Below, piece after piece: positions 25,509 through 28,252 of a DNA stretch of 43,619 bases. The stretch spans positions 1-43,619 of the forward strand of contig JAQUPS010000013.1 in assembly GCA_028716485.1 (NCBI GenBank). Reading direction: 5' to 3'. A program made the translations under genes and the position numbers. The stretch's first letter is position 1. Each line of letters begins with the position of its first letter. Source of the stretch: Patescibacteria group bacterium. Its GTDB lineage: Bacteria > Patescibacteriota > Patescibacteriia > Patescibacteriales > WJLG01. The notes below the pieces were generated by a model. The model was given only the letters and a program-made list of their open reading frames with translations, was not told the DNA's origin and did not search any database.

Positions 25509-25886
25509 GGGGATGCCAGGGATCGATGACGAGATTTTTTGTTAATACTCAAGGCGTGCCGGGCACCACGTAAAAATGTCCAAAATCACAATTGCGAATA
25601 AAATCGCTCGCGGAGCCGCCTTCACTTGGAAGGTTCCGGCTTTTGCGCTTGTTGCCGCTTAATACCGGCAGCCATTTCGCCTTCTGACTCCTCTGGGAAG
25701 GTGGGAGTGTCATTTTAGAGGATCAGGTTGCCAGTGTCGGCTCTTAGACTGGCAGCTAAAACTAAATAGGGCTCGCCATTATTTTTTCGCCTTGCTTTTA
25801 GGTAATGGTTAAACCCAAGCTGGGCTAAACTTGTAGCAGTATTAACCTAAACTTGCCAGACGCGGGTTCAATTCCCGCCATCTCCA
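25509..25886 (+). ncRNA. ssrA: tmRNA (transfer-messenger RNA)
   Basis: GGGGAUG at the 5' end pairs with CAUCUCC before the 3' discriminator (one G-U), and the T-arm is CGGGTTCAATTCCCG. CCA is not encoded in full. The tag reading frame runs through TCCAAAATCACAATTGCGAA at ~25579 to TAA 25660-25662. It would encode a tag ending in FALVAA, longer (about 26 residues) than the usual 8-15 and basic in the middle (ANKIARGAAFTWKVPAFALVAA). The exact resume codon is uncertain. Several paired segments consistent with pseudoknots follow the tag stop. Directly downstream of smpB. Confidence 0.9.
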
Positions 25887-25890
25887 CAAT

Positions 25891-26347: not shown

Positions 26348-26433
26348 GGTCCGGTGGCGGAACTGGCAGACGCGTTGGACTTAAAATCCAATTCCATTAA
26401 ACCGGAGTGAGGGTTCGATTCCCTCCCGGACCA
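26348..26433 (+). tRNA. tRNA-Leu (anticodon UAA)
   Basis: Acceptor GGTCCGG pairs with CCGGACC, discriminator A. The anticodon stem-loop is TTGGA-CTTAAAA-TCCAA with TAA at the anticodon position. A long variable arm (class II) and the T-arm AGGGTTCGATTCCCT are present. CCA is not encoded. Confidence 0.95.
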
Positions 26434-26440
26434 CAATCAA

Positions 26441-26472
26441 AGCGCGAAGTTCAAATTGCGAAGTGCGAATTT
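26441..26472. repeat. Repeat of the GCGAAGTTC family after tRNA-Leu
   Basis: GCGAAGTTCAAATTGCGAAG is a near copy of the sequence at 25905-25924, in direct orientation, directly after a tRNA gene. Confidence 0.75.
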
Positions 26473-26491
26473 CAAGTTAATTTATAGCACC

Positions 26492-26520
26492 TTGATTTTT
26501 TTGAAAACTATTGATATTAT
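26492..26520 (+). promoter_or_regulatory. Promoter of tRNA-Gly
   Basis: TTGATT (26492-26497), 17-nt spacer ending TGA, TATTAT (26515-26520), ~35 bp before the tRNA. Confidence 0.55.
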
Positions 26521-26522
26521 AT

Positions 26523-26551
26523 AATTCGAACTTCGCATTTCGAAATTCGAA
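26523..26551. repeat. Repeat of the TTCGAACTTCGC family before tRNA-Gly
   Basis: ATTCGAACTTCGCATTTCGA is an inverted relative of the arms around the four-helix-bundle gene, placed just 5' of tRNA-Gly. Confidence 0.75.
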
Positions 26552-26560
26552 TGTTGAGAG

Positions 26561-26634
26561 GCGGGTATCGTATACCGGTATTATGCCACCTTGCCATGGT
26601 GGAGAAACGGGTCCAATTCCCGTTACCCGCTCCA
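26561..26634 (+). tRNA. tRNA-Gly (anticodon GCC)
   Basis: Acceptor GCGGGTA pairs with TACCCGC. The anticodon stem-loop is CCACC-TTGCCAT-GGTGG with GCC. T-arm ACGGGTCCAATTCCCGT. Discriminator T and an encoded CCA, unlike the neighbouring tRNA-Leu and tmRNA. Confidence 0.95.
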
Positions 26635-26637
26635 AAA

Positions 26638-26669
26638 TAAAACAGCCCGAACGGGGCTGTTTTATTTTT
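26638..26669 (+). terminator. Rho-independent terminator of tRNA-Gly
   Basis: AAACAGCCC / GGGCTGTTT stem with a short loop followed by TTATTTTT. Confidence 0.85.
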
Positions 26670-26683
26670 CGTAAATGGTTAAT

Positions 26684-26846
26684 GCGGGAATTGGACTGGT
26701 CAGGAGCGAGGCAATGGCCGCGAGGGAACGAGCGGCCGGCAGCCGAGCGTCCGCCAAGCATTCGGGGAATGCTTGGCGCTGACCCTGGACGAAGGAGCAA
26801 ACCGCTTTCCGGCGGCGAGCGACTGAGCTACTCCCGTTACCCGCTC
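26684..26846. mobile_element. GC-rich structured element beside a duplicated tRNA-Gly 3' end
   Basis: A ~160-bp island, visibly GC-richer than its AT-rich surroundings. It contains a perfect 12-bp stem (26752-26763 / 26767-26778), GGCCGC/GCGGCC (26716-26737) and GGTCAG/CTGACC (26698-26703 / 26779-26784), compatible with a branched fold. Its left edge (26685-26696) is the exact reverse complement of the tRNA-Gly T-arm (26611-26622). Its right edge repeats the tRNA 3' end (15 bp, 26832-26846 = 26618-26632), and the following GGGCTGTTTT matches the tRNA terminator at the same 214-bp offset. No coding frame is convincing. It could be a non-autonomous mobile element, an integration scar or a structured RNA. 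Confidence 0.55.
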
Positions 26847-26879
26847 ACTAACGAAGATAGTCTGAAAGGGCTGTTTTTG

Positions 26880-27109
26880 TTTTGTATTTTGGCAATTTGG
26901 CAGACTTAAATTGATTTAGCGCTTTCTAAATGATAAAATGTTTCTATAAAACTTAGATAATGTTTGTGGCGGAAGAAGGGTTGTAATAACTGATGAATTT
27001 TAATATAAAGATAAAAAATATTATCTTTAAAAGTTGGTTTGCATGTTTGACAAGATATAAACTAAGTTATAATATAGTATCTATGTAGAGTTTAAAGCAA
27101 ACTATCTTT
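26880..27109. other. AT-rich gap upstream of fic
   Basis: No gene is seen. It contains the hairpin AAAGATAA/TTATCTTT (27007-27028) just before the fic promoter, possibly an operator. Confidence 0.5.
27047..27075 (+). promoter_or_regulatory. fic promoter
   Basis: TTGACA (27047-27052), 17-nt spacer, TAATAT (27070-27075). ATG is at 27110. A small hairpin lies just upstream (27007-27028). Confidence 0.65.
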
Positions 27110-28252
27110 ATGAATGTAGAAATTACTAGAAAAGTCCAGCAAAGTCAGGGGTTCGCAGCCTCTGTCCCACATCCTTTTCCACCAAAAGGTGTTTTTGCTT
27201 TTGAGCAAAAACTGCTTAATAAGGCCGCCGAAGCGGATCGCCTTGTCGGGAAATTAGACGGCATTACCCAAATTTTGCCGGACATAGACTTTTTTTTGAA
27301 AATGTATATAAGAAAAGATGCTACTTCCTCGGCGCAGATAGAAGGCACGAGGGCGACGATAATCGATGCCATAGAAATGGAAGCGAAAATCGACGGCAAG
27401 CAAAGCGATGCCCAAGATATTTTATTTTATATCAAGGCGCTGAATTACGGCATAAAGAGGATAGATGAATTTCCGATGTCATTGAGATTCATCAGGGAGG
27501 TGCATTCCAAGCTAATGACCGGCGCTCGCTCCACTCATTTTTCCGACCCGGGCGAGTTTCGCCATTCCCAAAATTGGATTGGCGGAACAACCCCAGCCGA
27601 CGCTTCTTTTGTCCCGCCTCCGGTTGGCAATATGAATGAAGCCCTTAATAATTTTGAGAAATTTTTGTATGACGAAGAATCTACCTTGCCGCTTATTCAA
27701 ATCGGCATAATCCATTCGCAGTTCGAAACAATCCACCCGTTTTTAGATGGCAACGGCCGAACCGGCCGGCTTCTAATTACGCTTCTTTTATATAAACGAG
27801 GATTGCTGGAGCACCCGGTATTGTTTTTATCTTCTTACTTTAAAAAACATCAAAAAGTATACTATGATAAATTAGACGGTTATCATAATGGCAAGGTTGA
27901 CGAGTGGATGGATTTTTTCTTGGGAGGAGTCATTGAAACCGCGAATGAAGCCATTGCAGTGTCTAAGAAGATAAGAAAGTTGCGCGACGATGATATGGCA
28001 AAACTTTTAGCTTTGGCAAAACGTGAATCAGAAAGCGGAGTTTTAGTTTTATCTAAGCTTTATGCCAATCCAATTGTCAATACTAGAATTATTATGCAGT
28101 GGACAGGTTTTTCCCGTGTCGGAGCCCAGAAGTTAATCAATCGTTTTGTCAAGATGAATATATTAAAAATGGCAGACAACGAAGACGGTTACGATAGAAA
28201 GTACCGATATGAAAAATATCTGGATTCTTTTTTTGGGATAGATAATGAGTAA
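27110..28252 (+). CDS. Fic-family protein (AMP-transferase type) with N-terminal inhibitory helix
   Basis: 380 residues. The Fic core motif is HPFLDGNGRTGRLL (His209), matching HPFx(D/E)GNGRxxR for AMP transfer from ATP to target hydroxyls. The N-terminal region carries SAQIEG (Ser74-Gly79), the (S/T)xxxE(G/N) inhibitory motif whose Glu blocks ATP until relieved, making this a class II Fic. The flap region and a C-terminal winged-helix-like segment (NTRIIMQWTGFSRVGAQKLI) follow, as in the common Fic/DUF4172-like proteins. Targets are unknown. Own promoter and terminator; no antitoxin partner is adjacent, consistent with built-in inhibition. Confidence 0.9.
   Translation: MNVEITRKVQQSQGFAASVPHPFPPKGVFAFEQKLLNKAAEADRLVGKLDGITQILPDIDFFLKMYIRKDATSSAQIEGTRATIIDAIEMEAKIDGKQSDAQDILFYIKALNYGIKRIDEFPMSLRFIREVHSKLMTGARSTHFSDPGEFRHSQNWIGGTTPADASFVPPPVGNMNEALNNFEKFLYDEESTLPLIQIGIIHSQFETIHPFLDGNGRTGRLLITLLLYKRGLLEHPVLFLSSYFKKHQKVYYDKLDGYHNGKVDEWMDFFLGGVIETANEAIAVSKKIRKLRDDDMAKLLALAKRESESGVLVLSKLYANPIVNTRIIMQWTGFSRVGAQKLINRFVKMNILKMADNEDGYDRKYRYEKYLDSFFGIDNE

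Follow-up and report, generated by a model that had tools for sequence, protein, structure and literature searches.

What is the short, structured island that stands behind a tRNA-Gly gene and ends in a second copy of the 3′ end of that tRNA? The window, by which we mean the whole stretch of 43,619 nucleotides that was analyzed, is contig C13 of a 1.15-Mb genome whose order is shared with Candidatus Falkowbacteria S5_I03. We confirmed that TCCCGTTACCCGCTC, at the 3′ end of the gene (26618-26632), recurs at 26832-26846 and that the terminator motif GGGCTGTTTT at 26654 recurs at 26868, both at an offset of 214, as the initial annotation had claimed; a 15-bp repeat starting within the first 40 nt of the region appeared in 0 of 2000 dinucleotide shuffles. 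The annotation had also described the left edge of the island as the exact inverse of the T-arm and had noted a 12-bp perfect stem, and both readings held: GTCCAATTCCCG (26611-26622, T-arm) is the exact inverse of CGGGAATTGGAC (26685-26696), and the strands of the stem lie at 26752-26763 and 26767-26778. The features of the locus are as follows.

26561-26634, + strand: tRNA-Gly(gcc), the intact target (ARAGORN, Rfam RF00005)
26611-26622, + strand: T-arm segment GTCCAATTCCCG, mirrored by the left arm (inverted repeat, 100%)
26618-26632, + strand: left copy of the duplicated tRNA 3′ end (direct repeat)
26634-26668, + strand: perfect terminator-like palindrome (PT) between the tRNA and the element (inverted repeat, 15/15 bp)
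26669-26683, + strand: linker, a mini-hairpin in many other copies (sequence, comparison)
26684-26696, + strand: left arm GCGGGAATTGGAC, reverse complement of the T-arm of the adjacent tRNA (inverted repeat; statistics over 110 copies)
26697-26827, + strand: conserved structured core P1-P4 (models R1/R2, 141 and 128 bits, the training set of R1 having included this copy)
26698-26703, + strand: P1 5′ strand GGTCAG, pairing with 26779-26784 (helix 1, 96.8% of cells paired)
26706-26748, + strand: P2/P2b helices with tandem C-GA-G/C-GA-G internal loops (helices 2 and 3; alignment)
26752-26778, + strand: P3 hairpin with the 12-bp perfect stem (inverted repeat; helix 4)
26779-26784, + strand: P1 3′ strand CTGACC (helix 1)
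26795-26825, + strand: P4 hairpin region (helix 5)
26832-26846, + strand: right arm, the second copy of the tRNA 3′ end (direct repeat)
26868-26883, + strand: terminator-like T-rich motif after the right arm (direct repeat, 88%)

The second terminator has only GGGCTGTTTT in common with the first and forms a poor hairpin. The sense strand of the island folded better than 200 of 200 shuffles (z = −3.0), and the antisense strand folded more weakly (z = −2.0). At the gathering threshold of Rfam 15, the tRNA alone scored and no family covered the island; at a permissive threshold, the best weak match inside the core had an E value of 3.1. From comparisons of sequence, we consider it probable that the island is a structured, non-autonomous mobile element whose insertion duplicates the invaded tRNA end, as developed below.

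The surroundings of the island have features of their own. The hot spot is a smpB–tmRNA–tRNA-Leu–tRNA-Gly cluster (25509-25887 and 26348-26434), and SmpB-like genes lie near units at tRNA-Gly at about a dozen loci of the order. An 81% inverted repeat, with a GCGAAGT motif in its arms, separates tRNA-Leu from tRNA-Gly (26437-26543). Directly downstream of the island lies the gene for a Fic-like protein carrying the HPFLDGNGRTGR motif (27110-28252, + strand), and kin proteins are encoded near two units elsewhere (L088 and L102).

A search of the home genome and of relatives, the check proposed at the outset, uncovered kin copies beside many other tRNAs, so that the island clearly has relatives and signs of mobility. 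Two further copies lie in the same genome, on contig C11, in an array behind tRNA-Glu; they are 72% identical to the island over about 150 bp and 98.5% identical to each other. Copies beside other tRNAs were also found in a search of 60 relatives. A covariance model (R1) built from eight cores had about 120 matches, which fell in 42 of 111 genomes searched in the order, and a second covariance model matched 66 of 381 genomes in a sample of the class and 19 of 380 in a sample of the phylum, two samples that overlap. The genomes compared were mostly metagenome-assembled, and those with the element carried one to nine copies each. Among 166 distinct copies, 110 had a tRNA 3′ end within 100 nt, with 16 isotypes represented, and 34 had no tRNA within 700 nt, some of these being later units of arrays. 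In a pattern scan of named genomes, covariance-confirmed matches were restricted to Falkowbacteria, Buchananbacteria, and other Patescibacteria; pattern matches in Variovorax, Sphingomonadales, Acidobacteria, and archaea had no covariance match and were counted as chance. Phage and plasmid records contained no match to the element. Viral contigs gave three pattern matches, none coinciding with a covariance match, and the single covariance match elsewhere in L210 was at chance level. The island appears to belong to a family of very small, folded mobile elements that is distributed across Patescibacteria and apparently undescribed; we found no account of such elements in the open-access literature. 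Many copies do lie at contig ends, as repeats do in fragmented genomes, which would suit an assembly artefact or chance repeats beside an ordinary terminator; nevertheless, the shuffles never reproduced the repeat and copies lie within long contigs of unrelated assemblies, including the single-contig genomes G102 and G055. With related copies refuting it, the probability of this explanation is negligible.

We then compared the anatomy of the copies. The usual order is tRNA, terminator palindrome, linker, inverted T-arm copy, core, and direct copy of the tRNA from position 58, in a unit of about 215–240 bp. The palindrome behind the tRNA is present in most copies; in some genomes elsewhere in the phylum it is missing, and a short spacer takes its place. 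The linker measures about 12 nt and often forms a mini-hairpin. The left arm is normally GGGRATTCGAAC, the reverse complement of the T-loop and the 3′ strand of the T-stem, and junctions such as GCGGA or GCGATA connect the core to the right arm. The unit stands directly behind the tRNA and repeats, at its far end, everything in the tRNA from position 58 onward, so the tRNA remains intact.

Both arms fit the adjacent tRNA. The complement of the left arm equals the tRNA base at position 59 in 107 of 110 copies (40.3 expected if independent), and agreement also exceeds expectation at positions 55, 57, and 64 in these copies. In 61 of 109 cases, the right arm reproduces the tRNA perfectly from position 58 through to its 3′ end. 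Among these 61, the upstream limit is sharp, with no identity before position 58 in 57, and on the downstream side identity extends at most 2 nt past the tRNA end in 45. A58 is universal in tRNAs and the junction usually ends in A; the duplication may therefore start at 58 or at 59. At 38 positions where the right arm differs from the tRNA, some of them affected by indels, the left arm sides with the tRNA at 31 and with the right arm at 5, which disfavors pairing with the right arm as the sole reason for keeping the left arm. The extended inverted end seen in a few copies (e.g., L013 and L082) led us to consider snap-back copying of the tRNA end in full as well. The linker is fully complementary to the acceptor strand in only 1 of 110 copies, however, so simple snap-back fails to describe most of them and was rejected.

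Between the arms lies a folded core of about 100–135 nt that is conserved by covariation. A MAFFT alignment of 56 divergent copies, made from sequence alone and folded with RNAalifold, yielded 23 pairs in five helices, with double compensatory changes at 23 of 23. Of the cells, 89.1% were paired, compared with 62.5% in the shuffled control and 29.5–43.5% in the slid control, and the covariation score was 0.731 versus 0.249. The branched fold suggested earlier for the island is thereby borne out. By inspection, tandem GA internal loops (C-GA-G/C-GA-G) recur in three helices. Coding capacity is absent: conservation tracks base pairing, indels separate the copies, and open frames overlap on both strands. 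On the tRNA-sense strand, G.U pairs are more numerous than A.C pairs, and the difference is clearest in P3 (15 versus 1 at one pair). This excess suggests a sense-strand fold, as RNA or single-stranded DNA alike.

An RNA-mediated origin, in which a core transcript is reverse-transcribed into the tRNA gene with the tRNA 3′ end as primer or template, could draw on this G.U excess and on the better folding of the sense strand, as well as on the limits of the copied segment, near position 58 on one side and the tRNA 3′ end on the other, and on terminator hairpins that are followed by an inverted tRNA end. We nonetheless consider it improbable: tRNA transcription is cut off from the unit by the terminator, a G.T mismatch is mild in DNA as well, and no RVT_1 match was detected in 8 of 20 element-rich genomes, some of them complete or near-complete. 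Accordingly, of the two insertion types initially put forward, an integrase-free, non-autonomous element at the 3′ end of a tRNA is supported, and RNA-mediated insertion is not established.

Several comparisons bear on mobility. Cores that are 94–98% identical stand at different tRNAs with arms fitting each, as at L023 (Gly) and L027 (Ser) and at L060 (His) and L090 (Val), and the cores at L193 (Asp) and L196 (Gln) form a further near-identical pair. In a tree of 109 cores, isotype changed 73 times versus 74.8 after shuffling (s.d. 2.4), that is, at random, whereas host genus changed 61 times versus 82.8 and host family 27 times versus 61.8, that is, both were conserved. Because the core tree tracks host lineage but not isotype, the elements seem to move from tRNA to tRNA inside a lineage. 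Three members of one genus differ at the tRNA-Gln(ctg) locus, in a comparison across species with diverged flanks rather than between strains: G103 carries a unit there, whereas the site is empty in G101 and G099, with just one tRNA 3′ end and similar sequence downstream. At the window's locus in the sister species G001, tRNA-Gly is immediately followed by a different unit; after this come another tRNA 3′ end and a truncated remnant that is 97.6% identical over 42 bp to the core of the window. Furthermore, tandem units, and units with cargo genes between them, are common.

These patterns also bear on whether the island could be immobile, either a functional RNA gene or a 3′ regulator that accompanies tRNA genes, with selection keeping the left arm complementary. 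Strong covariation and a left arm that sides with the tRNA over the right arm (indels affecting some of the positions compared) would both follow. We give this possibility little credence, given the patchy presence of the family and its varying copy number, the random association with isotypes, the empty orthologous sites, and the tandem arrays.

A rarer form of the element occupies the D-loop (L155, L196, and L203). Here, the tRNA 5′ half, cut after GG, is followed by a hairpin, the core, and the intact tRNA, so that 15–21 nt of the 5′ half are duplicated exactly; in L203, promoter-side sequence is duplicated too. The hairpin reads GTC-GA-...-GA-GAC in two of the three copies. In the tRNA elbow, T-loop 57/58 and D-loop 19/20 come together, and this proximity may be the reason for the two insertion sites.

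No integrase, reverse transcriptase, HUH transposase, or resolvase was consistently tied to the element in the genomes searched. The unit has no room for a gene and carries no integrase. A PF00589 protein was present in 17 of 18 genomes searched, and several element-rich genomes had one such tyrosine recombinase only, usually far from the elements. PF00589 matches in the 18 genomes did not adjoin elements, with one exception in G043, whose sole match precedes the copy at C8:15292 by about 0.9 kb. RVT_1 was found in 12 of 20 element-rich and 9 of 20 element-free genomes, Y1 in 6 and 9, and resolvase in 16 and 12, respectively. These three families do not track the presence of the element, and they and PF00589 were all rejected as a required enzyme. 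Clustering of 414 flanking ORFs revealed no recurrent mobility protein, only conserved neighbor genes and varied cargo.

The near-ubiquity of PF00589 proteins fits a conventional tRNA island shrunk to its attachment site, for which a tyrosine recombinase acting in trans (a helper or a host Xer-like protein) integrates a circle at the T-arm and the tRNA 3′ end of the circle restores the gene. Islands are classically recognized by a tRNA with a displaced 3′ fragment (PMC4383910), and larger cargo units occur in the same arrays. An imported 3′ end, however, would bring the acceptor bases of the donor, yet right arms frequently copy the host tRNA exactly although cores change isotype; the lone PF00589 gene of several element-rich genomes is usually distant; the D-loop copies duplicate the 5′ half instead; and Xer as an integrase uses dif sites, not tRNA genes (PMC4383910). 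We regard this route as unlikely, though less so than an RNA-mediated one.

Within our preferred reading of a non-autonomous mobile element, an enzyme supplied in trans would recognize the folded core, probably as a single strand. The core would be inserted at a loop of the tRNA gene, at T-loop 57/58 or D-loop 19/20, and the tRNA end would be duplicated through a staggered break or recombination. The least certain step is the last: during insertion or shortly afterward, the new host tRNA would serve as the template from which the left arm is copied afresh, one conceivable route being hairpin-templated strand switching. Inverted repeats are known to have their arms homogenized by template switching (PMC7202029, PMC8794818), and such switching could act on the palindrome formed by the tRNA 3′ end, terminator, and left arm. 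It may be, though we think it less likely than not, that this amounts to a distinct mode of mobility, in which a folded core without its own recombinase targets T-loop 57/58 and D-loop 19/20, duplicates the tRNA half that must be restored for the tRNA to survive, and rewrites its complementary arm from the new tRNA at each move. There is a fair chance that such arm rewriting is new in kind.

The arrays merit separate description. At tRNA-Gln(ttg), L101 (G103:C52:61576-70693) contains a pair of identical 238-bp units that are separated by 6 kb and enclose two cargo blocks, one encoding ABC transporter and MarR-like genes and the other ArsR, thioredoxin-like, and CcdA-like genes; the blocks share GTTCGAAC motifs at their left ends and TTAGCCACAC..TTCGAACTT.GTCCACGA at their right ends. 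The array on contig C11 of the home genome (L009, behind tRNA-Glu(ttc)) holds short cargo genes whose right ends share GGGTGTAAATTCTCAATACAGT(A/G)GTCTA three times, and it resembles a gene-cassette array without a known recombinase. L193 (G268:C41:19490-26772) has three units at tRNA-Asp with cargo between them, the cargo right ends reading GTTCTAACATC(A/G)TCTATTACCCTCCGC. Another type of block, starting with a GGTGT..GACCGACA-like sequence, lies directly behind tRNAs at L144, L134, L123, and L076 and perhaps represents a further tRNA-targeting family.

If our reading holds, bacteria with very small genomes gain a phylum-wide family of mobile, structured, protein-free elements, whose size may be the smallest for a tRNA-site element. 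Since the elements sit in gene-cassette arrays, they would mark a route of gene gain in Patescibacteria. Standard island searches drop such elements by design, through minimum length and the demand for an integrase, and Rfam is without them. Moreover, arms that track the host tRNA pose a testable question, namely, how an element switches its target and rewrites its own ends.

Finally, we compared the element with known systems. Like tRNA-integrated genomic islands (Islander type; Williams), it uses a tRNA gene as its site, leaves the tRNA intact, has a tRNA fragment at the far end, and forms tandem arrays (PMC4383910). Those islands are multigene and 2–200 kb long, whereas the element measures about 0.2 kb, lacks an integrase gene, and has an inverted T-arm copy, arms fitting the new tRNA after a move, and a covarying core. 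Islander discards candidates that are shorter than 2 kb or without an integrase (PMC4383910) and would therefore miss this family. Tycheposons and their satellites likewise start at tRNAs and carry cargo, some without mobility genes of their own (general knowledge and PMC10872708); unlike the element, Tycheposons span 4–200 kb and have a tyrosine recombinase (PMC10872708).

Among short repeats, MITEs, REP/RAYT, and Rickettsia palindromic elements resemble the element in being protein-free, dispersed, foldable, and flanked by a duplicated target. The duplication known from MITEs is seen here as a doubled tRNA 3′ end (from 58) or 5′ half, with empty sites single. The terminal inverted repeats of MITEs are constant, whereas the terminal arms of the element vary with the host tRNA, and its specificity for tRNA loops sets it apart from MITEs and REP-type repeats alike. 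As for REP/RAYT, the Y1 (RAYT-type) transposase is absent from 14 of 20 element-rich genomes. Integron attC sites and cassette arrays offer a parallel in folded sites and in arrays with gene cargo between them, but by inspection the ends of the element have no GTTRRRY/RYYYAAC boxes, its right end has no GTTRRRY, and it is anchored at tRNAs rather than at attI. Regarding an integron-type integrase, most element-rich genomes tested have a single PF00589 protein, in a search at the level of PF00589 as one family. Quasipalindromes homogenized by template switching share the conversion of imperfect inverted-repeat arms into identical ones (PMC7202029, PMC8794818); they reflect a mutational process, not an element, and we invoke that process only as one route by which the left arm could come to match the tRNA. 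On these comparisons, we class the element as a non-autonomous site-specific mobile element, of an apparently undescribed variant.
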